26,167 bases of DNA, from positions 1 through 26,167 of the IMG/VR virus record IMGVR_UViG_3300044701_004126. One strand, 5' to 3'. Origin of the DNA: a virus. The translations under genes were made by a program, and so were the position numbers. Within the stretch, counting starts at the first letter, position 1. Every line of letters starts with the position of its first letter. This document shows positions 4,098-20,549 of the stretch, in pieces. The notes below the pieces were generated by a model. It was not told where the DNA came from. It did not search any database and saw only the letters and a program-made list of their open reading frames with translations.

Positions 4098-4601
4098 ATG
4101 AAGATAAATGAACTCTTTCAGGGTGGAAAATCTGGATCAAGATGGTACAGTGATGATGAAATGATATCTATTGTCGGTCGACATTGGAGATGGGATGACG
4201 GTGATAATGAAACTTCACTAGATAAAGAAGCACAAATCGCTGATGCTCAAGATTGGCTAGATAAACAGGGCTATTCTGTTAGCGTTTTAGATTTAGCGCA
4301 CGTGGGCAAGGAAAACTATTGGAAAATTAGCGGCATATTTATTAAAAAAGTAAATGAAAAGTGGGATGACAGCGGCGCATCAGACGCCAATGGACGTTGG
4401 GCTAAGTATAGAGACAGTGAGATAGGAGTGGGTGCAATGGCTACTTGGCTCTATAACTCTAGAGTGCACAAAAAAACTAAGGTAGAAAAACTTAGATCGG
4501 CATATGGCGCAATTGCTCAACAGGAAAATACATCGAAGCTTATAAGCTCCTCAAAAGCAGACTCATTAAGGGCAGCACTTAAAAAGAAATACGGTGACTG
4601 A
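4098..4601 (+). CDS. Hypothetical protein with MKINELF leader
   Basis: This is a 167-residue protein of unknown function. An AAGG site precedes the ATG. The leader MKINELFQGG resembles that of the next gene (MKINEILGGN) and, more loosely, the T4 Alt leader MELITELF, so it may be a capsid-targeting sequence; this is inference. The middle is Trp- and Asp-rich (RWYSDDEM, RHWRWDDGD). The tail is basic and helical (ADSLRAALKKKYGD). The next ATG follows the stop directly. Confidence 0.65.
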   Translation: MKINELFQGGKSGSRWYSDDEMISIVGRHWRWDDGDNETSLDKEAQIADAQDWLDKQGYSVSVLDLAHVGKENYWKISGIFIKKVNEKWDDSGASDANGRWAKYRDSEIGVGAMATWLYNSRVHKKTKVEKLRSAYGAIAQQENTSKLISSSKADSLRAALKKKYGD

Positions 4602-5537
4602 ATGAAGATCAATGAAATCCTAGGAGGCAATACTAGTTATGATTTTTCATTATCAGAGGCTGCCATACGCGCAAATTCTATGCATGATGCGATGTTGGAA
4701 GCAGTGAAGATAATTAGTAGGGATTGTTCAAAATGGCTTAAGGAGAGTAATTGTAATATTTTTTATCGTGGGATTGGTGTAGACAAATTCCGTTCAGACT
4801 ATAGTTCATTTAAAAAATCTTCCATAGTTAAACTATCATCCGGAGTGCCTAAATCCCCTGAAGATGATTTTTTAATAAAGATGTCTGTACCACAAAATAG
4901 AAAACCCGTTGATTCACCAAACTGGCTTCATAGTGTAATGGACGAAAATCTAGTTAAAAACACAGGTATACCATTTAGATCACGCTCCATATTTGTTCTT
5001 AAAGATATTAGAATCGCAGAAAACTACGGAACACCTTACATGGTATTTCCAATTGGAAACTTTAATTATGCGTGGTCTAAATTATTGGATGATCCGACTT
5101 ATATATTTTATCTAAGCGAGATGGAGTCTGGATTTGGAAGCGTATTGTATAACGATACTGGCATTTATGATATTATAAGAAAATACTGGCGTAATTATGT
5201 AGAGAAAATGGATGCTGCTGGGAAGCTAAGTTTGACTGATTATCATCCTTCAATCGATTCATATTTAAAAAATGTTAGTGGTAGATCAGGTACCATAGAC
5301 ATTAAACGCGGCTCTGAGAGCTCGCTTTACGTAAGAATCATAAAAGACTTTATAAAGAACACCAATCTATGGATGTTTAATAAAGATCTAGCAACGACGG
5401 CAACCAGTGAATATAGTTCACATGAAGTAATGGTTTCAACTAAATATTGTTATGCTATTAATCATAGAAGCGTCTATGACATAGATCAGTTTAAGCAACT
5501 TTTAAAAGACGAAATTAAAAAGGGAAATTTATCATGA
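4602..5537 (+). CDS. Putative ADP-ribosyltransferase-like protein (copy 1)
   Basis: This 311-residue protein has the layout of an arginine-type (R-S-E) ADP-ribosyltransferase: FYRG with Arg56, SRS at 127-129 followed by a segment ending AENYGTPYMVFPIG, and a C-terminal strand SSHEVMVS with Glu275 where the catalytic Glu would lie. T4 Alt has the same order (LYRS, STS, NEMEV). The two downstream paralogs keep these blocks, including DSPxWLH and GIPFRSxS, which supports a shared fold. The leader MKINEILGG may direct it into the head. It would transfer ADP-ribose from NAD+ to host proteins; the target is unknown. It abuts the previous stop and overlaps the next gene by ATGA. The assignment rests on motifs only. 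Confidence 0.55.
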   Translation: MKINEILGGNTSYDFSLSEAAIRANSMHDAMLEAVKIISRDCSKWLKESNCNIFYRGIGVDKFRSDYSSFKKSSIVKLSSGVPKSPEDDFLIKMSVPQNRKPVDSPNWLHSVMDENLVKNTGIPFRSRSIFVLKDIRIAENYGTPYMVFPIGNFNYAWSKLLDDPTYIFYLSEMESGFGSVLYNDTGIYDIIRKYWRNYVEKMDAAGKLSLTDYHPSIDSYLKNVSGRSGTIDIKRGSESSLYVRIIKDFIKNTNLWMFNKDLATTATSEYSSHEVMVSTKYCYAINHRSVYDIDQFKQLLKDEIKKGNLS

Positions 5538-6334
5538 ATGCAATCAACATAGATGAACTGACTAATGAGTTCATAAACGCATATTCAGATGATGTAATGG
5601 GTAACTTTGTTAAAGCGAAAAATTCATATTTAGACGCAGTTTCATCTGCAAAAAACTGGTCTTTGAAGGCTAGTAAACTTTCTAAATCACATCTTCAAAT
5701 GAGCCAAGAGGAGTTTCAAGATGCAGTGATGTTACATTTTGGGGTTTTTCTAAAGAAACACGGGTTCCCTAAGCATCCTAGCAAAGGATGGCATGACGCA
5801 GAATCTGATGCCCTTAAAGCACTTCAAGACAATATCTCAGAGGAATATGATACGGCTGAATCAAATCGTGAATATTTTGATAGTATTCAAGAATGGGCTC
5901 ATACGGCAGAAGAACTAGAAGCAGAAATCAGCATAAGAGATGGAGTCTATATTGCACACGGACCATATGGCGAAATGGGTGAATTTCACCCTGAAACAAA
6001 AATGGGATGGATGGTTACTAAAAAGTTTATTGAAAGTCATAGTCTTCAAAAAGGAATTTCATTTAAAGATTTTCTCTTTGAGGAAGATATAAGAGCTGTG
6101 GCCTCTAAAAAAGCAATGGATATTTTGGGCGCCCCATCTTATAGGGCCTCAAAAAGTGAAGAAAAAGACATATCGAGGCTTCTAGATATAGCGAAACAGG
6201 AAAAGACAGAAAAAATTAACACCCCAATTGGGCCATGGGTGATTAGTCTTTTTAAAACCACAGCAAAAACTTTTGTGGCTGCATATCCTCCTAAAGCATA
6301 TGGAAAAGACCCAATATTTTTCGTAAAGGACTAA
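5534..6334 (+). CDS. Hypothetical protein, 266 aa
   Basis: This soluble, charged protein lies between two ADP-ribosyltransferase-like genes and overlaps the first by ATGA. Residues about 20-135 are mainly helical. A central Gly/His/Pro-containing part (DGVYIAHGPYGEMGEFHPETKMGW) looks like beta structure. An internal stretch ISFKDFLFEED (about 175-185) resembles the leader of the 6543 gene (TFKDFLAEGD), which may mean a fusion of two units. No enzyme motif is recognised. The neighbours suggest an accessory or head-internal protein, but this is weak. Confidence 0.65.
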   Translation: MNAINIDELTNEFINAYSDDVMGNFVKAKNSYLDAVSSAKNWSLKASKLSKSHLQMSQEEFQDAVMLHFGVFLKKHGFPKHPSKGWHDAESDALKALQDNISEEYDTAESNREYFDSIQEWAHTAEELEAEISIRDGVYIAHGPYGEMGEFHPETKMGWMVTKKFIESHSLQKGISFKDFLFEEDIRAVASKKAMDILGAPSYRASKSEEKDISRLLDIAKQEKTEKINTPIGPWVISLFKTTAKTFVAAYPPKAYGKDPIFFVKD

Positions 6335-6336
6335 AC

Positions 6337-6540
6337 ATGAAATTTTTAAAAGATTTATTAAAAGAAACGCATGCTGGCATTTATGAAGATGATAATGAAG
6401 AATGGCCTAAGTTAGTTTCAAAGGCAGACAATTATCGAGTAGAGATAGATGAAAACGAGCAAATATATTTGAAAACAAGAAGCGGAAAAGTTTTAGTAAA
6501 GATGCCTTATGTAATATGGACACAGCTGACTAGAGGATAA
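6337..6540 (+). CDS. Small hypothetical protein with MKFLKDLLKE leader
   Basis: This 67-residue ORF fits exactly between its neighbours, 2 nt after one stop and 2 nt before the next ATG, which supports it being real. The N-terminus MKFLKDLLKE is amphipathic like the other leaders here. The rest (YRVEIDENEQIYLKTRSGKVLVKMPYVIW) reads as three or four beta strands. Function unknown. Confidence 0.6.
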   Translation: MKFLKDLLKETHAGIYEDDNEEWPKLVSKADNYRVEIDENEQIYLKTRSGKVLVKMPYVIWTQLTRG

Positions 6541-6542
6541 AT

Positions 6543-7376
6543 ATGACCGGTACTTTTAAGGACTTCTTGGCTGAAGGTGATTCAAACCTGGATAAAATAG
6601 CTGATATTATAGTGCGTGACTGCAAGAAGTGGCTCATAGATAGTAACTGCATTCCAATATATAGAGGAATGGGGAAACGGTGGTGGGGCAAAGGCGAAGG
6701 TACCGATCTTCTTGAAAACATTTTAAAGATACGTGTCATGAAAGATAGGGAGCCACGAGATTCACCAAAGTGGCTCCATGAATCAATGAGCAAAAAGATG
6801 GTTGCTGATTTTGGGATCCCATTCAGGTCCCAGAGTGTATTTGCTATTAGAAGTATTGACATGGCGTCAAACTTCGGTGAAATCTATATGGTATATCCCA
6901 TAGGGAGATATGACTACGCATGGTCTGCTGTCGTTAACGACGCCACTGTAAGTTTATATGAGTGGTCTGATAACACATTTGTATCCAGAAATACAAAGTG
7001 GGATGATCTTGCTAGTTTTGTAGAAAACATGCCTACAGAGCTAGCAGACATGTTTCAAAGAACATGGGACTTTATGATTAAAGAACACGAGCACCTTAAG
7101 AATAGAGGCTTTGATAGTAGTCTTCAGTCTTTTATGCGTGCTATGCAACTTAATCATGATTTAAAGAAAGAAATCATAGAGTTAGTTATCTTTCAAAATG
7201 ACCTTTGGACTTATAACAATGGATTGATGCAGGTTTTAACTAAACCTGACTTCAATGAAACTGAAATCATGATAGCTACTGATTCTTATTATGCTGTTAA
7301 ATTTGAAAAACACCAAGAACATGAGCTAATACACAAATTAATAGAGAAGCTAAAACATGCCGACGGCAGCACTTAA
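6543..7376 (+). CDS. Putative ADP-ribosyltransferase-like protein (copy 2)
   Basis: This 277-residue protein is paralogous to the 4602 gene. The blocks are IYRG with Arg41, DSPKWLHESM (73-82), GIPFRSQSVF with Ser96 and Ser98, an FGEIYMVYPIGRYDYAW segment, and FNETEIMIA with Glu239 and Glu241, a clean ExE motif as in arginine-specific ADP-ribosyltransferases. The leader MTGTFKDFLAE is very like the T4 internal-protein leader MKTYQEFIAE. It ends in L-A-E, which fits the (L/I)-x-E cleavage rule of the T4 gp21 head protease. A head-carried, injected enzyme acting on host proteins is a reasonable inference. The last 20 nt overlap the next gene. Confidence 0.6.
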   Translation: MTGTFKDFLAEGDSNLDKIADIIVRDCKKWLIDSNCIPIYRGMGKRWWGKGEGTDLLENILKIRVMKDREPRDSPKWLHESMSKKMVADFGIPFRSQSVFAIRSIDMASNFGEIYMVYPIGRYDYAWSAVVNDATVSLYEWSDNTFVSRNTKWDDLASFVENMPTELADMFQRTWDFMIKEHEHLKNRGFDSSLQSFMRAMQLNHDLKKEIIELVIFQNDLWTYNNGLMQVLTKPDFNETEIMIATDSYYAVKFEKHQEHELIHKLIEKLKHADGST

Positions 7377-8343
7377 ACATTTAGCAAAACGTGCAGGAGT
7401 TAAACTTAAGCGTGCCGAGCATCTTTGGGATAAGGCTGGAGATATCGTGTCTGCGGAGTATGATGTAGATAAATCTGATTCAAGCTATTGGGCTCTTAGA
7501 ATGGGCATCACGAAGAGGATGTTGGGATTATCAGAGGATAAGATGACTCTCAAGATGTTTTTAGAAGCTGCGGAAAAAGACCGACCATCATATAAAATGC
7601 TATACGACGCTGATGCGATAAAATTTTTGAATACAAGATGTCAAAACGCTTTATGGATGCTTATGCTAAATAAACCTCTTTTTAGAGGTGATAATGTAAG
7701 TTACAATTTTGCAAAGGTTGATACTTCTAAAACTACGAGAGTGAGCGAGAATACTACAAACTTTTATACGCTGATTCTAGACAACAACCCGTTAATGGTG
7801 GATTTTCCAAAAAGAAGCAGAAGCTTTATTGGTACAGTGGATTATGGCCGTGCCGAACAATATGGGCAGCCTTTTATCATGATACCTGCCGACAACGCAA
7901 AAATAGGAGTGGTTGGTTCAGAGGACATATGGGATGTTAGGATTGACCTCTTTGGTAGAAGAAAAGGTATAGAAAATTTAAATTTACTATACGAAATTCT
8001 GGATCTAAATGATACTGATATTGACAGCTTTTATAAACTTGACAAGCTCCTTAAACAAGATGATCCTGAAAAAGTTAATAAATTTTATGACGCTTTGTCA
8101 ATTGTTTTAAGTTTAAATGAAGAGCAGCTTGAGAATTTAGTATCAGGAAACGCCCACCATGAATTCATGGGATTTATCTTCGACGCTTATTCCCCCGCGG
8201 AAACGGGATTTAAATGGTATTACACTAGCAATATGCCAAAAAATATGTATGATACGGAAGTATGGGTGAGCGGTGAAGTTCTAGTGATATCTGAAGAAGA
8301 ATGGAAAAAATTAGACATAAAGGATGGAAAGTTTTCACTATGA
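7357..8343 (+). CDS. Putative ADP-ribosyltransferase-like protein with N-terminal helical domain (copy 3)
   Basis: This 328-residue protein has two parts. Residues 1-60 form a helical unit (HLAKRAGVKLKRAEHLWDKA ... YWALRMGITKRMLGL) of a kind I associate with small phage domains of unknown role. From residue 63 (MTLKMFLEAAEKD, itself leader-like) comes a diverged ADP-ribosyltransferase-like part: LFRG with Arg110, RSRSF with Ser154 and Ser156, a YGRAEQYGQPFIMIP segment, and YDTEVWVS with Glu301. It is less similar to copies 1 and 2 than they are to each other. Its stop overlaps the start of the first gene of the second repeat cluster (ATGA). Confidence 0.5.
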   Translation: MPTAALKHLAKRAGVKLKRAEHLWDKAGDIVSAEYDVDKSDSSYWALRMGITKRMLGLSEDKMTLKMFLEAAEKDRPSYKMLYDADAIKFLNTRCQNALWMLMLNKPLFRGDNVSYNFAKVDTSKTTRVSENTTNFYTLILDNNPLMVDFPKRSRSFIGTVDYGRAEQYGQPFIMIPADNAKIGVVGSEDIWDVRIDLFGRRKGIENLNLLYEILDLNDTDIDSFYKLDKLLKQDDPEKVNKFYDALSIVLSLNEEQLENLVSGNAHHEFMGFIFDAYSPAETGFKWYYTSNMPKNMYDTEVWVSGEVLVISEEEWKKLDIKDGKFSL

Positions 8344-8885
8344 ACATATACGAATTTCACACCAATCCAGAATCGCTTGATTCATTTAAAGAGGTGAGTA
8401 TTGCAAATCCAAGATTGGCATATCAATGTGCTGAAAAATTAGGTAGAAGATTACCGATCGTAGAAACAGCGATAGCTAAAGATGCACGGTATGCATATTT
8501 GTACGCGGTGCAAGTCATAGACGGAAGATTTCCAGAGGGAGAGCAGGCAATAGCTAAAGATGTGGCGTACGCACCCTATTATGCTAGAGACGTCATCAAG
8601 GGAAGGTGGCCAGAGGGAGAGGCTGCGATAGCTAAAGATGCACGGTATGCATATTTGTACGCTAAATACGTCATCAAGGGAAGATTCCCAGAGGGAGAAG
8701 CAGTGATAGCTAAAGATGGGTGGAGCGCTGCATATTATGCCAAAGACGTCATCAAGGGTAGATGGCTAGAGGCTGAGGAGGTTATAATTATGCAATATCA
8801 GTTCTTAAAGATAGGTTTATTCCTGGAGAGTTTGAAATCAGTGACAGCAGATATAAATACAAATATGAAGATTTCTTTGGAATAG
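8340..8885 (+). CDS. Repeat protein of MNIYKFHTNPESLD family, 3' frameshifted
   Basis: The start is taken at 8340, where ATGA overlaps the previous stop and the leader MNIYEFHTNPESLD begins; an in-frame ATG at 8301 lies inside the previous gene. The 181-residue product has the leader, a cap, four full 26-residue repeats from Arg37, then a broken fifth. From about 8774 the reading frame leaves the family sequence. The DNA at 8799-8885 matches 10030-10116 at all but one base, yet here it is read in another frame. A loss of about 25 nt relative to the paralog at 9468 explains this. In the original frame the gene would end with a TGA overlapping the next ATG at 8890. The product lacks the normal C-terminal cap. 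Confidence 0.75.
   Translation: MNIYEFHTNPESLDSFKEVSIANPRLAYQCAEKLGRRLPIVETAIAKDARYAYLYAVQVIDGRFPEGEQAIAKDVAYAPYYARDVIKGRWPEGEAAIAKDARYAYLYAKYVIKGRFPEGEAVIAKDGWSAAYYAKDVIKGRWLEAEEVIIMQYQFLKIGLFLESLKSVTADINTNMKISLE
8448..8759 (+). repeat. Four coding 78-nt tandem repeats
   Basis: Four 26-residue units. The first is a variant (RLPIVETAIAKDA) shared with the gene at 9468. The fifth unit is cut by the frameshift. Confidence 0.8.
8799..8885 (+). repeat. 87-nt near-perfect direct repeat (copy A)
   Basis: This segment differs from 10030-10116 at one base in 87 (T for C at the GTGACAGC/GCGACAGC position). The reading frames differ between the copies. It contains the TATAAATA box at 8852. It points to recent duplication or gene conversion. 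Confidence 0.85.
8852..8859 (+). promoter_or_regulatory. Candidate late promoter embedded in coding tail
   Basis: Exact TATAAATA starting 38 nt before the ATG at 8890. The same box lies at the same 38-nt distance before the ATG at 10121. The spacing resembles that of the intergenic boxes at 18955 (41 nt) and 25619 (46 nt). It may serve the next gene; it could also be a by-product of the coding sequence RYKYK. Confidence 0.4.
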
Positions 8886-8889
8886 ATCT

Positions 8890-9471
8890 ATGAACATCTA
8901 CAAATTTCACACTGATCCAGAGTCCCTCGACCTCTACGAGGAGAGGTTGACTAAAATCCACAAATTTGCATATGAACACGCAAGGAGTTTAGGCAGAAGG
9001 TTCCCAGAGGGTGAGGCGGCTATAGCTAAAGACGCATGGTATGCATATTTGTACGCCTATTATATCATTAAAGGAAGGTGGCCAGAGGGTGAAGCGGCCA
9101 TAGCTAAAAATGCACAGCTCGCATATCGGTACGCTAAATATATCATCAAAGCAAGGTTCCCAGAGGGAGAGGCGGCGATAGCTAAAGATGCAGGGCATGC
9201 ATGTGAATACGCTAGAGACGTCATCAAAGGAAGGTTTCCAGAGGGCGCGCCGGCCATAGCTAAAGATGCGGCGTACGCACACTATTATGCCAGATACGTC
9301 ATCAGAGGAAGATTCCCAGAGGGAGAGGCGGCGATAGCTAAAGATGCAGGGCATGCATATTTTTACGCTAAGAACGTAATCAAGGGAAGGTGGCCAGAGG
9401 GAGAGGCGGCGATAGCTAAAAATAGGGTTGTCAAACCAGTCTACGAAAAACTGTTTAACGTTAAGCTATGA
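8890..9471 (+). CDS. Repeat protein of MNIYKFHTNPESLD family (5 repeats)
   Basis: This 193-residue protein has the leader MNIYKFHTDPESLD, a cap (LYEERLTKIHKFAYEHARSLG) close to that of the gene at 1037, five full 26-residue repeats from Arg37 and a terminal unit ending in FNVKL. The variable positions in each unit fall just after AKDA and around the YA doublet, as expected for surface residues of a solenoid. It begins 4 nt after the frameshifted neighbour's stop and overlaps the next gene by ATGA. Open frames on the opposite strand (for example 8989-9354) are shadows of the repeat. Function unknown. Confidence 0.8.
   Translation: MNIYKFHTDPESLDLYEERLTKIHKFAYEHARSLGRRFPEGEAAIAKDAWYAYLYAYYIIKGRWPEGEAAIAKNAQLAYRYAKYIIKARFPEGEAAIAKDAGHACEYARDVIKGRFPEGAPAIAKDAAYAHYYARYVIRGRFPEGEAAIAKDAGHAYFYAKNVIKGRWPEGEAAIAKNRVVKPVYEKLFNVKL
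8998..9387 (+). repeat. Five coding 78-nt tandem repeats
   Basis: Five full 78-nt units (26 residues each) plus a terminal degenerate unit. Large parts of the core encoding PEGEAAIAK are near-identical between units at the DNA level. Confidence 0.85.
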
Positions 9472-10124
9472 ACATCTACCAATTTCACACCGACCCAGAA
9501 TCTCTTGATTCATTTAAAGAGATGAGTATTGCACAACCACGTTTGGCATATCAATGCGCTGAAAAATTAGGTAGAAGATTACCGATCGTAGAAACAGCGA
9601 TAGCTAAAGATGGTTGGTATGCATATCTGTACGCTAGAGACGTCATTAAGGGAACGTTCCCAGAAGGAGAGGAGGCGATAGCTAAAAGTTTAAAGTACGC
9701 ATACGATTACGCTAAAGACGTCATCAGAGGAAGATTCCCAGAGGGAGAAGCAGTGATAGCTAAAGATGCAGAGATGGCTTATTACTATGCGGTTAAAGTC
9801 ATCAAGAAAAGATGGCCAGAGGGAGAGGTGACGATAGCTAAAAATGCATATACTGCATATCAATATGCTAAAGACGTCATCAAAGGAAGATGGCCAGAGG
9901 GAGAGGTAGCGATAGCTGAAGATGGGTGGAATGCTGCACACTATGCTAGAGATGTCATCAAAGGAAGGTGGCCAGAAGCAGAGAAGGCCATAGCGAGCTC
10001 TGCAGGAGGTTCATATGACTATGCGGTGTCAGTTCTTAAAGATAGGTTTATTCCTGGAGAGTTTGAAATCAGCGACAGCAGATATAAATACAAATATGAA
10101 GATTTCTTTGGAATAGAGCTATGA
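9468..10124 (+). CDS. Repeat protein of MNIYKFHTNPESLD family (6 repeats)
   Basis: This 218-residue protein is the longest family member here. It has the leader MNIYQFHTDPESLD, a cap (SFKEMSIAQPRLAYQCAEKLG) almost the same as in the 8340 gene, six full 26-residue repeats from Arg37, and a distinct C-terminal cap (RFIPGEFEISDSRYKYKYEDFFGIEL). It is the intact relative of the frameshifted gene at 8340 and shows what that gene's tail should be. It overlaps both neighbours by ATGA. A TATAAATA box lies within its last codons. No catalytic residues are apparent; a binding or scaffold role is a guess. Confidence 0.8.
   Translation: MNIYQFHTDPESLDSFKEMSIAQPRLAYQCAEKLGRRLPIVETAIAKDGWYAYLYARDVIKGTFPEGEEAIAKSLKYAYDYAKDVIRGRFPEGEAVIAKDAEMAYYYAVKVIKKRWPEGEVTIAKNAYTAYQYAKDVIKGRWPEGEVAIAEDGWNAAHYARDVIKGRWPEAEKAIASSAGGSYDYAVSVLKDRFIPGEFEISDSRYKYKYEDFFGIEL
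9576..10043 (+). repeat. Six coding 78-nt tandem repeats
   Basis: Six 26-residue units starting at Arg37 of the protein. The first is the RLPIVETAIAKD variant; later ones have RWPEGE or RFPEGE openings. Confidence 0.8.
10030..10116 (+). repeat. 87-nt near-perfect direct repeat (copy B)
   Basis: Partner of 8799-8885 with one mismatch. Here it is in the correct frame and encodes the C-terminal cap of the protein. Confidence 0.85.
10083..10090 (+). promoter_or_regulatory. Candidate late promoter embedded in coding tail
   Basis: Exact TATAAATA starting 38 nt before the ATG at 10121, inside the codons for RYKYK. It corresponds to the box at 8852. A one-mismatch version (TATAAAAA, 1496-1503) occupies the same position, 38 nt before the ATG at 1534. 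Confidence 0.4.
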
Positions 10125-10633
10125 ACATCTACGAATATCACACTAATCCAGAATCTCTTGGCTTTTACGAAAAGAGATTTACTCGAGTACCTAAACTAGC
10201 ATATAAACGCGCAGCGAGTTTAGGTAGAAGATTCCCAGGGGGAGAGCTGGCTATAGCTAAAGATGCGCAGTATGCATATTTTTACGCTAGAGACGCCACC
10301 AAAGGAAGATTTCCAGAGGGAGAGCCGGCTATAGCTAAAAATAAAATGTGGGCATATTTTTACGCTAAAGACGTCATCAAGGGAACCTTCCCAGAGGGAG
10401 AGGCGGTGATAGCTAAAGATGCAGAATTGGCGTATCTATATGCTGAATACATCATCAAAGAAAGATTCCCTGAAGGAGAGGCAACAATAGCTAAAGATGC
10501 GAAGTATGCATATGAGTACGCTGAAGACGTCATCAAGGGAAGATTTCCAAAGGGAGAGCCGGCTATAGCTAATAGCCAATGGAAATCAGCCTATGAAAAA
10601 CGATTTAACGTAAAGCTGAATTCAAATGATTAA
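10121..10633 (+). CDS. Repeat protein of MNIYKFHTNPESLD family (4 repeats)
   Basis: This 170-residue protein has the leader MNIYEYHTNPESLG, a cap (YEKRFTRVPKLAYKRAASLG), four full 26-residue repeats from Arg37 and a terminal unit reading FNVKLNSND. The extra NSND is unusual: the other intact family members end at the Leu of FNVKL or FGIEL, with the next ATG overlapping. Here the TGA seems lost and the frame runs four codons into the following gene, overlapping it by 8 nt. It closes the second cluster. Function unknown. Confidence 0.8.
   Translation: MNIYEYHTNPESLGFYEKRFTRVPKLAYKRAASLGRRFPGGELAIAKDAQYAYFYARDATKGRFPEGEPAIAKNKMWAYFYAKDVIKGTFPEGEAVIAKDAELAYLYAEYIIKERFPEGEATIAKDAKYAYEYAEDVIKGRFPKGEPAIANSQWKSAYEKRFNVKLNSND
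10229..10540 (+). repeat. Four coding 78-nt tandem repeats
   Basis: Four 26-residue units from Arg37, then a terminal unit (RFPKGEPAIANSQWKSAYEKRFNVKL) close to that ending the 1037 gene. Confidence 0.8.
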
Positions 10634-11509: not shown

Positions 11510-11872
11510 ATGGCTTCTAATTTAATTAAAAGAGCATACTCTGAAACTGAGTATACTCCTGAAAATATACAGGAACTAATAAAGTGTAAAAAGGATCCAG
11601 TATACTTTATATGTAATTATATTTATCTTCAACACCCCACAAAAGGAAAGATGTTGTTTAATTTGTATGACTACCAGCGTGAGCTTGTAGACAACCTTTT
11701 AAATAACCGCTGGATTGTGGCCCTGCTGTCGAGACAAATGGGAAAATGTTTTTCCGGCTCAACTTCTATAGTTATAATTAAGAAGCCATCTAAATTTAAG
11801 ATGGCTATATTAAAAATTATAGATAAAGGTGAATACGAAAATGTTAAAAAGCTGTTTGACATGCAAGATTGA
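11510..11872 (+). CDS. Terminase large subunit, N-terminal fragment fused to split-intein N-part
   Basis: This 120-residue ORF carries the first 79 residues of a T4 gp17-like packaging ATPase, including the adenine-binding region (NLYDYQRELVDNLL) and the start of Walker A (LLSRQMGK). Directly after this Lys the sequence turns into an intein: CFSGSTSIVI (Cys80) is a typical intein block A. The ORF ends after 41 intein residues. The missing part of TerL, starting with the Thr of GKT, is in the ORF at 12815. This half has no complete P-loop and should not hydrolyse ATP alone. Protein trans-splicing with the C-part would rebuild SRQMGKTQT, the gp17 motif. Its end overlaps the homing endonuclease gene. 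Confidence 0.9.
   Translation: MASNLIKRAYSETEYTPENIQELIKCKKDPVYFICNYIYLQHPTKGKMLFNLYDYQRELVDNLLNNRWIVALLSRQMGKCFSGSTSIVIIKKPSKFKMAILKIIDKGEYENVKKLFDMQD
11747..11869 (+). other. Split intein, N-terminal part (IntN, 41 aa)
   Basis: It starts at a Cys codon (TGT 11747-11749) at the GK/T junction of Walker A. Block A reads CFSGSTSIVI. Block B is absent here and lies on the C-part instead, so the break is much nearer the N-terminus than in canonically split inteins. AceL-TerL, an atypically split TerL intein, also has a short N-part. Confidence 0.85.
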
Positions 11873-12839
11873 ATTTGAAGCCAAAACCACTGCTATGTGG
11901 TGCTCCAAAGAATGTAAAAAAGTGCATACTAAAAAGTGCGTTGAAGAAAATAAACGCTTAAAAGCGGAAGAGCAGAAGAAGTCCTTCGTCCAAACAGATG
12001 ATAAGGTGCAGTGCTTAATATGTGGAGGTGCATGGGGCTCACTCTCTTCTCACTTGTCGCGAACACACAATATTACTGCAGATGAATATAAGGCACGATT
12101 TAACGTTGGCTCAGAAGCAATTTTTTCCAAAAAGAATCTGGCACTCATGTCTGAAAGAATGGCAGGCAGCAATAATATAGCCGCTGGCCACGGAGGTAGG
12201 CTTTCGCCGTTTTCTAAGAACAACAAAAAGCTCGACGGTAAAAATGAGTCAGAGAAAGAGGCGTTCGTTAAAGAGTCTGTCGGCAAGTGGATTAAGACCG
12301 TCCCAAAGGAAGACCGGCCGATGAACGTGGAGTACTGGGTGAAGCGGGGCATGACTGAAGAAGAGGCAAAAGCAGAAGTTTCTCGACGTCAAGCAACGTT
12401 CAGCCTAGAAAAATGTATAGAGCGATATGGAAAAGAAGCTGGGCTGAAGAGGTGGCAGGAGAGGCAGGAGTTATGGCACTCTAACTATAAGAAAAGCAAT
12501 TACAGCAAAATTTCTCAAGAACTATTTTTTAATTTGGTTGATTATGTTCCAGATGCACAATTTGCAGAACACACGGGCGAAAAAATTTTTAAAACGCTCA
12601 ACAGCAGTGTTTACAAGCTAGATTTTTGGAGTCCATCTACTAAAAAGATAATAGAATTTGACGGCGATTATTGGCATAGTGAAAAGCTTCTTCAAGCTAA
12701 TCCAGGAAGAAACGAAAATAGAGATAAAGAAATCTTATCTACTGATAAAAGCATTCGCATTATGCACGTTAAGGAAATAGAGTATAAACAAAACAAGGAA
12801 GGCACTATAGAAAAATGTTTAACATTCTTAAAAGAATAA
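11841..12839 (+). CDS. Free-standing homing endonuclease, Vsr-like, nested between terL halves
   Basis: This 332-residue protein has an N-terminal zinc-binding motif (C5-x2-C8, C21-x3-C25), a second zinc motif of ROS/MucR type (C58-x2-C61, H71-x4-H76 in HLSRTHNITADEYKARF), a helical Lys/Glu-rich linker, and a nuclease core LDFWSPSTKKIIEFDGDYWH with Asp261, Glu272, Asp274 and His279. This matches the Vsr-like fold, where FVDGCFWH is the equivalent. ATG 11841 is preferred over GTG 11829 because AAGGTG lies 9 nt before it. The gene overlaps the IntN-coding ORF by 32 nt and the IntC-coding ORF by 25 nt, in a different frame. It probably cuts intein-free terL alleles to spread the element; the target site is inferred. 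Confidence 0.85.
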   Translation: MLKSCLTCKIEFEAKTTAMWCSKECKKVHTKKCVEENKRLKAEEQKKSFVQTDDKVQCLICGGAWGSLSSHLSRTHNITADEYKARFNVGSEAIFSKKNLALMSERMAGSNNIAAGHGGRLSPFSKNNKKLDGKNESEKEAFVKESVGKWIKTVPKEDRPMNVEYWVKRGMTEEEAKAEVSRRQATFSLEKCIERYGKEAGLKRWQERQELWHSNYKKSNYSKISQELFFNLVDYVPDAQFAEHTGEKIFKTLNSSVYKLDFWSPSTKKIIEFDGDYWHSEKLLQANPGRNENRDKEILSTDKSIRIMHVKEIEYKQNKEGTIEKCLTFLKE

Positions 12840-13279
12840 TAGTTAATTGGTGTCTATCTAAAAAAACTACAACAATAGACAATCTATTAAAACATATTGA
12901 TTTAAATCCTACTTGGATTGGCGGGCCAGATGGAGATAGAAAATTTACAGCTAGTGCATACTGTGAAGATCTAGCGGTAAAAACAGACATTGGTTATTCT
13001 AAAGTAAAACAGATATTAGAGACAGTTCAATATGATACATATAAACTTACACTAGAGGATAATTTTGTACTAGAGTGTGCTGATGATCATTTAGTCATTA
13101 AACCAAACTATGAACAAATACAGGTAAAAAAATTAACGTCTACAGATTATGTCATAACCAAAGATGGTCCTAAGCGGGTAATATCAGTAGAAAAATTACA
13201 AAATAAGCAAACAATGTATGACTTAGAATTAAGTGATAAAAGACACTTGTTCTTCACTAATGGAATACTTTCACACAAT
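12815..13279 (+). other. Split intein, C-terminal part (IntC, 155 aa)
   Basis: It ends in SHN (AAT 13277-13279), and ACG (Thr) at 13280 begins the C-extein. It contains blocks B, F and G, and TDIGYSKVKQILET before block B. The first 40-50 residues have no clear intein motif and may be an extra segment or association region. With the 41-residue N-part the intein totals 196 residues, larger than a minimal intein. Confidence 0.85.
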
Positions 13280-14590
13280 ACGCAAACGATCTCTATGTTT
13301 CTGTTATGGTATGCTTCATTCTTCCGAGATCAAACTATCCTCATCGCCAGCAAAAATAACAATCACGCGATGGAAATCATGGATCGGATAAGGTTCGCTT
13401 ATGAGGAACTTCCGAACTGGCTTAAAGCTGGGTGCAAGTATTACAATAAGCATAATATCGAGTTTGATAATGGTTCAAGAATAAAGTCTGAAGCTACAAC
13501 AGAAAAAACCGGACGAGGATTAGCAATTTCTAAACTTTATCTAGACGAGCTCGCGTTCATTAATCCAAGGATACAGACAAATATGTGGACTTCTTTGGCA
13601 CCGACTTTGTCAACCGGCGGTTCAGCGATAATATCATCTACACCAAACGGCGACACCGATCTCTTTGCACAATTATGGAGAGGAGCAAACTCTGGTCAAA
13701 ATTCGTTTAAGCCACTATTTTTCCCCTGGAATAGACACCCAGAAAGAGGAGAGGAGTATTTAAAGGAGATGAAGGGGCAACTTGGTAATACCCAAATGAG
13801 GCAGGAAGTACTTTGTGACTTCTTGTCATCTGACGCACTCCTCATCGACACCATAAAGCTATCATATATCAAGGCTATTGAACCGACTTCATCCAACATG
13901 GGTTTTAGATTTTGGACAGATAAGATAGGCGGACGTGGAAAAACATATTTAGTAGGAGTTGATCCATCAACTGGTAATGGAAACGACTTTACTTCAATAC
14001 AAGTTGTTGAATTTCCATCATTAGTTCAAGTTGCTGAGCTAAGGACAAATATTCTTAACATCCCCTTGATATATGCAAAGATTAAGTGGCTTCTAAAACA
14101 CCTTAGGCAGCCAGATGAAAATCGTGGTAGGGCAGAAGTTATATGGTCCTTTGAAAGGAATGGAATTGGGGAAGCTTTGGTGGCACTCATACAGAATGAT
14201 GACTCACCAGATGGAGGAGTATACATAGACGGTGTAGAGCTTTACAATGAAAAACCTGACCGGTTGGGTGTATATACAACGGGCAAATCTAAAGTTTTGG
14301 CGTGCATGCATCTTAAGAATTTAGTAGAAAAGATAAATGGAGGTCTTAAGATAAATTCTGATGTTTTGTTGTTTGAGCTTCAAAACTTTATAGCTTCTGG
14401 GGGATCCTATAACGCAAAACAAGGAGCTACAGACGATGCCATCATGGCGACGTGTGTTGTGATGAAGGTTCTTAACAGGATGGCTAGCTATGATGAAGCT
14501 GCAAGAAAAGTAGTGTATGAACAGGTAGACCCAGATACAGTAATTAATGGAGATGATTATGGAGACGAACCAATCCCATACGCGATTTAA
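12815..14590 (+). CDS. Split-intein C-part fused to terminase large subunit C-terminal fragment
   Basis: This is a 591-residue ORF. Residues 1-155 are the intein C-part: a block B-like ECADDHLVI (87-95), block F (TMYDLELSDKRHLFFTNG) and block G ILSHN ending at Asn155. The next residue, Thr156, is both the splicing nucleophile and the Thr of Walker A GKT. Residues 156-591 are TerL: Walker B LYLDELAF (Asp244, Glu245), a TTPNG-like SSTPNG, then the RNase H-like nuclease with VGVDPSTGNG (Asp383) and GATDDAIM (Asp540, Asp541). Spliced TerL would have 515 residues (79+436). An AAGGAAGG lies about 12 nt before the ATG. The ORF has the same frame phase as the N-fragment but is separated from it by stops and the endonuclease gene. 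Confidence 0.9.
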   Translation: MFNILKRIIVNWCLSKKTTTIDNLLKHIDLNPTWIGGPDGDRKFTASAYCEDLAVKTDIGYSKVKQILETVQYDTYKLTLEDNFVLECADDHLVIKPNYEQIQVKKLTSTDYVITKDGPKRVISVEKLQNKQTMYDLELSDKRHLFFTNGILSHNTQTISMFLLWYASFFRDQTILIASKNNNHAMEIMDRIRFAYEELPNWLKAGCKYYNKHNIEFDNGSRIKSEATTEKTGRGLAISKLYLDELAFINPRIQTNMWTSLAPTLSTGGSAIISSTPNGDTDLFAQLWRGANSGQNSFKPLFFPWNRHPERGEEYLKEMKGQLGNTQMRQEVLCDFLSSDALLIDTIKLSYIKAIEPTSSNMGFRFWTDKIGGRGKTYLVGVDPSTGNGNDFTSIQVVEFPSLVQVAELRTNILNIPLIYAKIKWLLKHLRQPDENRGRAEVIWSFERNGIGEALVALIQNDDSPDGGVYIDGVELYNEKPDRLGVYTTGKSKVLACMHLKNLVEKINGGLKINSDVLLFELQNFIASGGSYNAKQGATDDAIMATCVVMKVLNRMASYDEAARKVVYEQVDPDTVINGDDYGDEPIPYAI

Positions 14591-16446: not shown

Positions 16447-17085
16447 ATGATCGAGAGAATAAAGTATCCGCGGACATATCATCTTCCGTGGAGCCCCGGT
16501 CGACAGAGCGATGATAAGGTCTTAACTTCTATCGACCATTTCAATGGCCAAAGAGTCATAGTCACAATTAAGATGGATGGCGAGAACTTCACTTGTTATT
16601 CTGATGGCTACGTGCATGCACGCTCCATCGATAGTTCCAGTGGAATTGATCGTGATTGGGTTAAAACCTTCTTAACACAAAATGTGTGCTTTAACTTACC
16701 TTCTGGTTGGAGGGTTTGTGGAGAAAATCTTTGGGCCAAACATAGCATTAGCTATGAAAACCTAGATTCATTTTTCATGGGGTTTAGTATTTGGGATGAT
16801 CAAAATAGATGTCTTTCGTGGGATGATACACTTGATTACTTTGAAAGCCTAAGCATTGTTCCAGTGAAAGTGATCTATAATGGCATTTTTGATGCTGATA
16901 AGATTCAATCCCTTTCGAGATCTTTGATTAATCTTGAAAAAGATGAAGGCTATGTTATGCGAATCGCTGACGGTTTTGACTATGAGTCATTTCCAAAATC
17001 TGTCGCAAAGTATGTAAGGCCAAATCATGTTCAAACTGACAAGCACTGGCGGCACTCAAAGCTAGTTCAAAATGTACTTAGGTAA
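16447..17085 (+). CDS. RNA ligase (nucleotidyltransferase superfamily)
   Basis: This 212-residue protein has the ordered motifs of ATP-dependent RNA ligases: motif I KMDGEN with Lys42 as the AMP-accepting residue, motif III-like GENLWAKHS (Glu93) with a following MGFSIWD, motif IV DEGYVMR (Glu167) and motif V VAKYVR (Lys188). It is short, with no large C-terminal domain, resembling a compact Rnl2-like ligase core. It should seal 3'-OH and 5'-phosphate RNA ends. The next two genes encode an HD phosphohydrolase and a polynucleotide kinase that could prepare those ends, making a complete repair set. The ATG follows an AGAGGA site. Confidence 0.85.
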   Translation: MIERIKYPRTYHLPWSPGRQSDDKVLTSIDHFNGQRVIVTIKMDGENFTCYSDGYVHARSIDSSSGIDRDWVKTFLTQNVCFNLPSGWRVCGENLWAKHSISYENLDSFFMGFSIWDDQNRCLSWDDTLDYFESLSIVPVKVIYNGIFDADKIQSLSRSLINLEKDEGYVMRIADGFDYESFPKSVAKYVRPNHVQTDKHWRHSKLVQNVLR

Positions 17086-17090
17086 ACAAA

Positions 17091-17693
17091 ATGAAAGCAG
17101 TAGATAGATTTAACACTTTCTTTGATATCTTTAAGAAGACTGATCTGTGGAGATCTATGCTTTGCACACGTGAAGATTCACCGTGGCATCGTGAAGAAAA
17201 TGTAGCAGAGCATACACGGATGCTTATTATGTGGTATCAACGAAATTTGCTCAACTATAGGAATGAGCGGCAGAACATTCTTACGCTAGTGTCTTGTCTC
17301 ATGCATGATGTTGGGAAGCCACTAGCGCAAGTTGTAAAAACCTCTGAAGAACGAGGTGTTTATCGAGCATATACTGGTCATGAACTTATCTCTGCTAGGA
17401 TTTGGTCAGATTACGCGCTAAGCAATTTTATGCTCATAAGTGATTTGTTCAGGTTCAAGCTTGACGATATCTCTAACATCTCGTTTTTCCTAGAGCATCA
17501 CGTGCCCTTTGGTCTAAAGAACGAAACAAAGAGAAGTGCTCTTAAACGTTCCATCATCGCCAGAACAGGAGAAGAGGGGCACAGGGCATGGCTAGATCTT
17601 CTGCTGAGCGATCAGCATGGTCGGATCTCAGATGACCAAGCAACTAAGCTCGATGCTGTTGATGAATGGATGCATAATTGGAAACAAGTCTAA
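17091..17693 (+). CDS. HD-domain phosphohydrolase, probable RNA end-healing phosphoesterase
   Basis: This 200-residue protein has HD-superfamily metal-binding residues: His41 in NVAEHT, His72-Asp73 in MHDVGKP, His97 in GHEL, a later LEHHVPFG, and Asp/His in LLSDQHGR. It lies between an RNA ligase and a 5' kinase. In Runella slithyformis HD-Pnk, an HD domain with 2',3'-phosphoesterase activity is fused to a polynucleotide kinase, so the same partnership here, encoded as separate genes, is likely. It would replace the HAD-type 3'-phosphatase domain that T4 Pnkp has and the neighbouring kinase lacks. A nucleotidase role is the main alternative. Confidence 0.75.
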   Translation: MKAVDRFNTFFDIFKKTDLWRSMLCTREDSPWHREENVAEHTRMLIMWYQRNLLNYRNERQNILTLVSCLMHDVGKPLAQVVKTSEERGVYRAYTGHELISARIWSDYALSNFMLISDLFRFKLDDISNISFFLEHHVPFGLKNETKRSALKRSIIARTGEEGHRAWLDLLLSDQHGRISDDQATKLDAVDEWMHNWKQV

Positions 17694-17742: not shown

Positions 17743-18267
17743 ATGAACAAGAAGGTTTGCTACATGTTGGTTGGAATCACTGGCGCTGGAAAGTCCACGA
17801 TTGCCAAGCAGCTTATTGAGGAAAATCCTGAAGCATTCGTGTTTTCTCTTGATACTCTCAGGCTTAAGCTCTTTGAGTCTAAGGATATTGGATCTCCTGT
17901 CAAGGAGCAGTACAGCCTTGCTTTTAATTATGCAAATGAGAATCGTCAGGAGTTTGACACCCTCGTGAATGATGAATGGGCTAAGGCGCTGAAGTCGCAT
18001 GTTGTTATCGTTGACAATATGAATCACACACGAAAGAGTCGGGCTAGGTGGATCACGTCTGCTCGGGCAAAGGGATTCACCATCGTCGCGATTGATGTTA
18101 TGTGCCCTCTTGACGTTCTCATCGAGCGCCAAAATACCCGTGCTGATAAGTCTGTTCCTGCAGATGTGGTGAGGCGCTCTTATTATTCTTATCAAGAGTT
18201 GTCTGTGGATGAGGCTGACATTGTTATTCGTATTAACGGTATCACGGGCATGCCGATTAATCCGTAG
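17743..18267 (+). CDS. Polynucleotide 5'-kinase domain protein
   Basis: This 174-residue P-loop kinase has GITGAGKST (11-19), Asp37 in FSLDTLR (the position of the phosphoacceptor-activating Asp in T4 Pnkp), a VIVDNMNH strand, RKSRARWITSARAKGF, and a lid/closing segment RQNTRADKSVPADVVRRSY. The order matches the N-terminal kinase half of T4 Pnkp. The phosphatase half is absent, which fits the HD protein next door supplying that step. It should phosphorylate 5'-OH ends of cleaved RNA, or DNA, for ligation. Confidence 0.8.
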   Translation: MNKKVCYMLVGITGAGKSTIAKQLIEENPEAFVFSLDTLRLKLFESKDIGSPVKEQYSLAFNYANENRQEFDTLVNDEWAKALKSHVVIVDNMNHTRKSRARWITSARAKGFTIVAIDVMCPLDVLIERQNTRADKSVPADVVRRSYYSYQELSVDEADIVIRINGITGMPINP

Positions 18268-18995: not shown

Positions 18996-20549
18996 ATGAT
19001 TAATGCGAAAATATTTTGTGATTTAATAGAAACCAATAACTATGACGCTCTTAGGAACGCGCACAACTCGGGAGAGTTGAATGCCGTCAAATGGTCATGG
19101 GTCACTAGGTTGAACCCATCGATAAGTCTAGAGGAAGAATACGTTAAAATAACAGGCATTGATCGCCCACAATGTAAAGTGTGTTGCGTTAATCCAGTTT
19201 CTTCATTCATTTCATTCGCCGCTGGGTTCAACAAGTATTGCTCAAAATCTTGCGCAAAGAGGGACCCAAACGTAGAGCAGAAGAAGGCCAAAACACTTAA
19301 GAGTAAACCAAATTGGAAGGTTGAGGCATTAGAAAAAGCTAAGTCAACCAACATGTTAAAGTATGGAGTAACAAGTCCATTAAAAAGCCCAGAAATTCTT
19401 CAGCGCCGAAGAGAAACTAACCTTAGCCTTTATGGCTCTACGGAAGTACTATCTGCTAAAAGCTCAATTCGAAATAAAATAACATCAGATATTGCTGTTA
19501 ATAAGGTTTTTTCGAGAGTTGATAATTTTTCTCACGTAATCCCACTCTTCACTAGAGAAGAGTTTAAGACAGCAGATGATACGTATAGTTGGAAATGCTT
19601 GGGGTGCTCCTCTATATTTTATTCTGCCTTAAACGATGGTAATATACCTAGATGCACTAGGTGCAATCCAAAAACATCTAGCGCGGGAGAGCACGAGCTC
19701 AGAAAGTATGTAGAGGATCTTCTAGACGAGGAAGTAATTCAAGGACACAAATTAAATAGTGGCCTTGAGGTCGACATATTCGTTCCCTCTAGAAAATTAG
19801 GAATAGAATTTAATGGGATCTACTGGCATTCAGAGCTTGCGGGTAAGTCTAAGGATTACCATATCAATAAAAAGAAGGAATGTCAAGAAGCTGGAATTAA
19901 TCTAATGCAGTTTTGGGACACGCAATGGTCTAATAAAAAGGAAATAGTAAAATCAATCATCGCTGGATCATTAGGATTTAATAAAAAGATATATGCCAGA
20001 AAGTGTATAATTAAGACTGTTCATGAAAAAGAATCATCAAAATTCTTAGAAAGTAATCATTTATCTGGTAATGCAAAAGGATCCTTTTTAAGGATCGGCT
20101 TATATTATGACGATAATCTGATTTGTCTTGCTACATTTAGTAAGCCACGTTTTAGTAAGAATGAAACTGAATCCATTGAGTTATTAAGGTTCTGTACCGC
20201 ACTAAATACAACTTGCGTAGGAGGTGCATCAAAACTAATTAGTGAAGCAATAAAAGTATGTAGGCCTAAGAAAATAATTTCATTTTGTGATGAAATGTGT
20301 TTTAATGGTTCAGTTTACAAAAATTTGAATTTTGTTAAAATATCATCTGGTAAACCATCATCATGGTATTTTTCAAGTGATGGTATATTAAAGCACCGTG
20401 TTTCTTTTCAGAAGAAAAAGTTGCTTGGTATGTTAAACTTAAGTGAATCGCCTTTGACAGAATGGCAATTGGCTCGTGAGCTTAAGTTGAATAGAGTTTG
20501 GGATTGTGGAAATTCCAAATGGGAGCTCGATGTTAGCTCTTCACGATGA
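18996..20549 (+). CDS. Free-standing homing endonuclease, Vsr-like (Hef type)
   Basis: This 517-residue protein has an N-terminal zinc motif (QCKVCC ... KYCSKSC), a helical region with repeated LKYGVTSPLKSPE / LSLYGSTEVLSAKS units likely to bind DNA, a second zinc motif (CLGC ... CTRC), and the nuclease core LEVDIFVPSRKLGIEFNGIYWH with Asp260, Glu271, Asn273 and His278. The C-terminal 190 residues look like a GNAT-like fold (FLRIGLYYDDNLICLATF, GGASKLI, YKNLNFVKIS), a combination I associate with phage Hef-type endonucleases. It sits just before gp32 under its own late promoter, so gp32 or its flank is the likely homing site. It shares the nuclease type with the terL endonuclease, but the rest differs. 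Confidence 0.8.
   Translation: MINAKIFCDLIETNNYDALRNAHNSGELNAVKWSWVTRLNPSISLEEEYVKITGIDRPQCKVCCVNPVSSFISFAAGFNKYCSKSCAKRDPNVEQKKAKTLKSKPNWKVEALEKAKSTNMLKYGVTSPLKSPEILQRRRETNLSLYGSTEVLSAKSSIRNKITSDIAVNKVFSRVDNFSHVIPLFTREEFKTADDTYSWKCLGCSSIFYSALNDGNIPRCTRCNPKTSSAGEHELRKYVEDLLDEEVIQGHKLNSGLEVDIFVPSRKLGIEFNGIYWHSELAGKSKDYHINKKKECQEAGINLMQFWDTQWSNKKEIVKSIIAGSLGFNKKIYARKCIIKTVHEKESSKFLESNHLSGNAKGSFLRIGLYYDDNLICLATFSKPRFSKNETESIELLRFCTALNTTCVGGASKLISEAIKVCRPKKIISFCDEMCFNGSVYKNLNFVKISSGKPSSWYFSSDGILKHRVSFQKKKLLGMLNLSESPLTEWQLARELKLNRVWDCGNSKWELDVSSSR

Follow-up and report, generated by a model that had tools for sequence, protein, structure and literature searches.

How can a phage make its large terminase (TerL) when the terL gene is broken inside the ATP-binding loop of the encoded protein? 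The question is raised by IMG/VR virus record IMGVR_UViG_3300044701_004126, analysed here over its whole length of 26,167 bases (the window). The window is a linear fragment with T4-like genes, encoding TerL, a gp32-like single-stranded DNA-binding protein (SSB), UvsX, and UvsY-like and UvsW-like proteins. Its terL gene occupies two open reading frames (ORFs) with a homing endonuclease gene between them. Very probably this is a fractured gene, in which an atypically split intein at the P-loop would join the TerL parts by trans-splicing and a free-standing endonuclease in the break presumably serves homing.

A large terminase gene broken at the Walker A motif

The upstream ORF (11510–11872, 120 residues) comprises 79 residues of TerL and 41 further residues that begin CFSGSTSIVI and end DMQD. 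The downstream ORF (12815–14590, 591 residues) runs for 155 residues to ILSHN and continues with 436 residues from TQTISM. The junctions SRQMGK/CFSGSTSIVI and ILSHN/TQT given in the original prediction were thus recovered. Joined to each other, the extein halves form a 515-residue protein collinear with T4 gp17 (E 2e-50), with the junction at GK/T of the Walker A motif; in the spliced product the break corresponds exactly to the Lys79-Thr80 bond. The residues at the splice junctions are Cys1 of the intein (Cys80 of the upstream ORF), a penultimate His, a terminal Asn (Asn155) and a +1 Thr.

The proposal that an intein splits terL at the Walker A Lys-Thr bond was confirmed by comparison with intein-free genes. 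Thirteen IMG/VR relatives of the downstream ORF (68–76% identity) were found, and the sequence RQMGKTQT runs uninterrupted in relatives L002–L010, showing that the in-frame insertion is exact at GK/T. Relatives L011–L014 are without the GK/T intein but carry a split intein at a /CEF site, which we take to be the AceL-TerL site type, from its CEF extein (+1 Cys-Glu-Phe). The N and C parts of the window gene share one frame, in which 36 stop codons separate the halves against 36 expected by chance; this rules out a contiguous intein overprinted by the endonuclease gene. ATG 12815 is the sole start codon available to the C part. Since terL is cut inside the ATP-binding site, the half-proteins should need joining for DNA packaging, and the earlier point that the P-loop is incomplete until the halves join is supported by relatives, profiles and structure models alike.

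The sequences flanking the break have the features of an intein. The C-terminal part of the intein (IC) matched TIGR01443 (intein_Cterm) above cut-off, and Pfam Intein_splicing matched it at 6e-5, below the Pfam cut-off. The NCBIfam search of the upstream ORF and the endonuclease gave no match. A Pfam IpgD match on the upstream ORF (E 0.08) was dismissed as chance. A scan with the single IC sequence also gave no match, and a family alignment was required as the query; profiles of the C-intein family matched VidaL, gp41-1, the AceL/GOS consensus CatC (6dsl) and NrdJ-1 in the PDB. The N-terminal part (IN) and IC of the window together aligned end-to-end with the contiguous inteins of L127 (39.5% over 205 columns, E 7e-39) and L133 (36.7%, E 3e-37), two phage contigs with inteins at the same terL site.

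An AlphaFold2 model of the L127 intein, 40% identical to that of the window and used as a proxy for the window IN and IC, had a pLDDT of 90 and the HINT fold, with VidaL as the best match (TM 0.85 by target). The single poorly ordered stretch of the model (residues 31–50), between two helices, is the position of the window break. The split therefore lies between blocks A and B, in a helical insert that is particular to this subfamily. The element has two reading frames separated by the 36 stops, an IN of 41 residues (fewer than ∼45) and block B on an IC of 155 residues, which makes the split atypical (A/B), as had been proposed. It is not an AceL/GOS-TerL allele, being located at GK/T with a +1 Thr and not at /CEF with a +1 Cys. 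Sequence and model together point to a HINT intein with an atypical split, presumed to be active in splicing.

Table 1. Features of the split terL locus in the window.
Feature	Positions	Strand	Basis
TerL N-extein, 79 aa, C-terminal end SRQMGK (first part of Walker A)	11510–11746	+	phrog_5989 terminase, E 4e-21; collinear with T4 gp17
N-intein (IN), 41 aa, Cys1 and block A; predicted helix at the end, then the break	11747–11869	+	aligns with contiguous inteins L127/L133, E 8e-7/1e-5; HINT model of homologue
Possible ribosome-binding site for the endonuclease gene (ATG 11841), AAAGGTG	11825–11831	+	inferred from sequence
Free-standing homing endonuclease gene, 332 aa, +1 frame relative to terL	11841–12839	+	3r3p (I-Bth0305I) by profile and fold
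Endonuclease N-terminal region, CxxC...CxxxC zinc motif and Ros/MucR-like C2H2 zinc finger, presumed DNA binding	11853–12100	+	Pfam ROS_MUCR, E 1e-9; PDB 2jsp, E 7e-7
Stop codon ending the N ORF; opens the series of 36 terL-frame stops ahead of the C part	11870–11872	+	
Endonuclease C-terminal EDxHD/Vsr-like nuclease domain, motif KKIIEFDGDYWH	12600–12836	+	profile and fold matches
Possible ribosome-binding site for the C part (ATG 12815), AAGGAAGG, within the endonuclease gene; spacing 12 nt, long	12795–12802	+	inferred from sequence
C-intein (IC), 155 aa, with extra helical segment, block B (CADDH), block F (MYDLEL) and block G (ILSHN)	12815–13279	+	TIGR01443; PDB VidaL/gp41-1/CatC
TerL C-extein, 436 aa, +1 Thr (last residue of GKT), remaining ATPase and nuclease domains	13280–14590	+	phrog_36964, E 5e-66; 68–76% to uninterrupted relatives

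The endonuclease gene and a proposed route to intact TerL

The endonuclease is encoded by an independent gene that starts at GTG 11829 or, more likely, ATG 11841 and overlaps the upstream ORF by 32 nt and the downstream ORF by 25 nt. The catalytic domain of I-Bth0305I (3r3p) matched its C-terminal domain by profile (E 1e-4). Foldseek placed the same structure at rank 1 (probability 1.00, E 0.015), with Vsr next; no match of the fold search fell below E 0.001, and the assignment is based on the probability and rank together with the independent profile match. The separate Vsr-like gene that had been predicted between the terL halves is therefore present. Glu272 of KKIIEFDGDYWH lines up with the 3r3p segment IEVNGVYW, a comparison covering part of the catalytic motif. 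The protein probably belongs to the EDxHD/Vsr homing endonuclease family; its C-terminal domain match suggests that it may be catalytic, and a role in homing is presumed.

In an endonuclease tree of 70 rows, the window protein groups solely with that of L049 (support 100), to which it is 55% identical. L049 (IMGVR_UViG_3300042566_001780, 291,687 bp) encodes TerL at 4523–8121 in three pieces with two split inteins; the gene is fractured at GK/T with an endonuclease and split a second time at /CEF. The /CEF site is likewise occupied in L087, as in L011–L014.

The two TerL halves, N-TerL-IN and IC-TerL-C, would be translated from separate starts on one presumed transcript, possibly with translational coupling. 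IN would dock into the nearly complete IC fold, and the intein would splice in trans via Cys1, Asn155 and the +1 Thr to release an intact 515-residue TerL with a restored P-loop. The endonuclease presumably cuts the intein-free terL of co-infecting relatives, whereupon repair would copy the cassette of IN, homing endonuclease gene and IC into the site. Agrobacterium phage Atu_ph07, whose terL (ASV44708 and ASV44707) is split at the same GK/T site and has no endonuclease in the gap, speaks for this scheme.

Several observations weigh against it. Block B of the window reads ADDH, with Ala in place of the Thr of many inteins, though this Ala is invariant across the family. The predicted ribosome-binding sites are weak. 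Catalysis by the endonuclease is suggested by a match of the C-terminal domain in which part of the motif was compared. The record is a 26-kb fragment, and a second, intact terL may lie elsewhere in the genome.

Related loci and competing explanations

The arrangement is not peculiar to the window and appears to be widespread. Locus counts were taken from best-first listings and are lower bounds, not measures of prevalence. A profile scan yielded at least 445 relatives of the endonuclease, the best 80 of which were taken further. Among the matches listed, 152 loci have the endonuclease profile; 145 of these also have the C-intein profile, with IC adjoining the endonuclease in each. At least 94 distinct loci combine the C-intein and the endonuclease at the terL GK/T site. 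In 85 of them, the window included, terL-frame stops are as numerous as synonymous shuffling predicts (median ratio 0.99, range 0.75–1.24), showing that the genes are truly split. The original prediction was right that a fractured gene and an AceL-TerL-like split are combined here; the insertion site is not that of AceL-TerL, as the +1 Thr shows, and with at least 94 such loci the combination is not special to this one. The family also appears much larger and more varied in state than described in the literature found.

Other loci depart from this plan. In L059 TerL is apparently split at three sites (profile positions 81, 164 and 258), giving four pieces. The endonuclease of L154, like that of Vibrio phage Va1 (L034, 3311–5599; at a /CEF-type site), is in one frame with the C-intein and the TerL C part, suggesting a fused endonuclease-IC protein. 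In Caulobacter phage Cr30 (L033, 3995–5017) terL is uninterrupted, and an endonuclease relative stands immediately before it. The same C-intein is also found, usually along with the endonuclease, ahead of other host sequences (LSHN/SMWLNN, STMLDA, SIWLAN and TAIVEG; L136–L139, L147–L153, L160–L163, L183 and L189–L203), so that the element probably occurs in genes besides terL.

Cultured phages show the site in several states. PhiW-14, like Atu_ph07, has a split terL without an endonuclease; Kuja, VAP7 and LIMEstone1 have a contiguous intein. In Campylobacter phages F379 and CJLB-13 an endonuclease gene stands between the N and C parts (fractured). Campylobacter phage CP220 and others have a contiguous intein at ∼97% DNA identity to fractured F379, and F379 (L031) and CP220 (L030) would make a natural test pair for the intein state. 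In Salicola phage SCTP-2 (MF360958; L047, L037/L044 and L041), TerL is encoded in three unlinked pieces, on differing strands. The GK/T-site halves lie at ∼429 and 257 kb, and the piece at ∼216 kb lies past a second split intein at Y/CDEF; this last piece has an apparent third intein, which is contiguous. In Vibrio phage vB_VmeM-32 (KU160494; L046 and L040), the N piece with IN lies at 80 kb and the IC-C piece at 1.1 kb, ∼79 kb apart in the record. The C piece also contains a contiguous intein, the second of this TerL, inserted at a Walker B-like DE/C site.

These loci bear on other accounts of the window. Programmed frameshifting (+1, then −1) might fuse the N part, endonuclease and C part into one cis-splicing precursor resembling an ordinary large intein. 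The overlaps are short, the N and C parts share a frame in the window and, among the matches listed, in 47 of the 82 split loci with an N part, and in Va1 and L154 the endonuclease is in frame with the C part. However, among the same matches the C part is not in a constant frame relation to the endonuclease (70 loci at one offset, 24 at the other and a few in frame), while the ATG of the C part is retained in most split loci; the halves in SCTP-2 and VmeM-32 are wholly unlinked. We consider frameshifting very unlikely. An RNA intron that contains the endonuclease and leaves the intein contiguous in the mature mRNA is an exceedingly improbable alternative, although EDxHD endonucleases are known in group I introns too and the F379 endonuclease is annotated as intron-associated, as is that of IBB_35, whose terL is described with an intein and an endonuclease-bearing intron (PMC3322345). 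An in-frame stop and an ATG flank the window break, and no group I or II intron core was found in the gap, as no Rfam family matched the region even at E 1 or the whole window at gathering. The endonuclease coding sequence, which overlaps both halves, fills almost the entire gap and leaves no space for such a core. Neither frameshifting nor an intron acting in cis could rebuild TerL in SCTP-2 or VmeM-32, as the pieces lie far apart in the genome.

The incompleteness of the genome leaves some room for the split terL being a dead or decaying copy, or for TerL parts that function unjoined. Both ORFs and every splice-junction residue are nevertheless intact, and dozens of diverged loci retain the same residues; unjoined parts should not bind ATP normally, because the break separates GK from T of the ATP-binding loop. 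The chance of either is slender. An assembly or chimera artefact has next to no likelihood: the window is a metagenomic contig in which the G+C of intein and endonuclease differs (0.28–0.30 versus 0.41), but the same arrangement recurs in many contigs of different metagenomes and in the cultured phages F379 and CJLB-13. Separate translation followed by protein trans-splicing is thus the best reading for the window, given the unlinked pieces of SCTP-2 and VmeM-32 and the variable frames with a mostly conserved ATG.

States of the terL site and comparison with known systems

In nine distinct loci (L075, L086, L099, L100, L102, L106, L109, L118 and the truncated L022), no stop interrupts the terL ORF across an out-of-frame endonuclease gene (0 against 8–21 expected); the third frame has the usual number of stops. 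These loci form one clade (SH-aLRT 97) in the endonuclease tree, which is unrooted and fits a change between split and open frame in either direction. Comparison of close pairs shows conservation in the endonuclease frame (for example, 21 synonymous and 9 nonsynonymous changes) and none in the terL frame (3 and 27). No terL-frame stop arises in the clade, though ∼9–13% of endonuclease-silent changes would make one, and two of the nine loci have lost every start codon where split C-inteins begin. On the simplest reading, the clade would encode a contiguous precursor with an overprinted endonuclease, its terL frame being selected only to stay open.

The chances are evenly balanced that the window represents one stage in a reversible cycle, confined to one terL codon boundary, with the states empty, contiguous, endonuclease-fractured, split without an endonuclease, and 'sealed' (frame reopened). 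If this is true, overprinting could repair a gene fractured by endonuclease insertion, and a split intein would not have to be a dead end. The relatives fill a gap in the origins of split inteins, with contiguous CP220 beside fractured F379, Atu_ph07, the unlinked SCTP-2 and VmeM-32, and the open-frame clade; the steps from contiguous to split intein are testable because the relatives show these differing states. The fractured-gene element has repeatedly occupied the packaging motor at its ATP-binding loop, and the short IN with a +1 Thr at GK/T is a new candidate type for protein semisynthesis.

Other parts of the window also drew attention. A 517-residue protein (18996–20549), located between RNA-repair genes and the SSB gene, matches the phrog_3339 homing endonuclease and has a Mom-like region. 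The ORFs at 17091–17693 and 17743–18267 match successive parts (11–159 and 183–334) of phrog_6931 (polynucleotide-kinase-like), a gene that may be in two pieces, and the match of 16447–17085 to an RNA ligase family is likewise confined to the C-terminal part. A run of ORFs at 8301–10633 has repeated FPEGEAVIAKDAxxAYxYA-type segments and appears mutually paralogous.

In 2009 Dassa et al. reportedly described genes fractured by split inteins and accompanied by a free-standing Vsr-like endonuclease, in a host set of DNA synthesis and repair enzymes. The window shares with these a conserved phage enzyme gene, a split intein and an EDxHD/Vsr endonuclease gene between the halves. It differs in the host gene, terL at Walker A, and in a split between blocks A and B (IN of 41 residues) instead of the usual central endonuclease site. 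The fractured-genes paper is the reference given for the EDxHD/Vsr family in PMC12350094.

AceL-TerL and GOS-TerL are likewise natural split TerL inteins with a short IN (25 and 37 residues) and block B on IC (PMC11766414). Unlike them (+1 Cys, /CEF site), the window intein has a +1 Thr at GK/T, an IN of 41 and an IC of 155 residues, and an extra helical segment. VidaL (PDB 6vgv), the best structural match of the L127 model, is also atypically split, but sequence identity is low (15%). Campylobacter phages F379 and CJLB-13 have the same gene order around a TerL intein near the same P-loop position. In contrast to the window, the insertion in these phages and in CP220, CP21 and IBB_35 follows RQ and precedes SS of a variant P-loop, and the F379 endonuclease resembles the profile only in its middle part and carries a different nuclease at its C-terminal end.

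The closest cultured relative of the window IC over its full length is that of Atu_ph07 (34%), with an IN of 42 and an IC of 148 residues and a similar hydrophobic start. Besides lacking the endonuclease it has Ser1 for Cys1, and its genome paper does not report a terL intein (PMC6102473). Pseudomonas phage MIJ3, also cultured, has a fractured gene that holds an endonuclease; there the host gene is PolB (DNA polymerase B), the endonuclease is of the HNH type and the split is central (PMC6892783). For the open-frame clade a published parallel is ShiLan, in which an out-of-frame HNH gene is hidden in a phage methylase (PMC11855218), giving a stop-free host frame over the endonuclease as in L075–L118; ShiLan has no intein there, and the window, with its 36 stops, is not in the open-frame state. 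The window is a further example of the known fractured-gene kind, in a family whose states span several stages of gene splitting.

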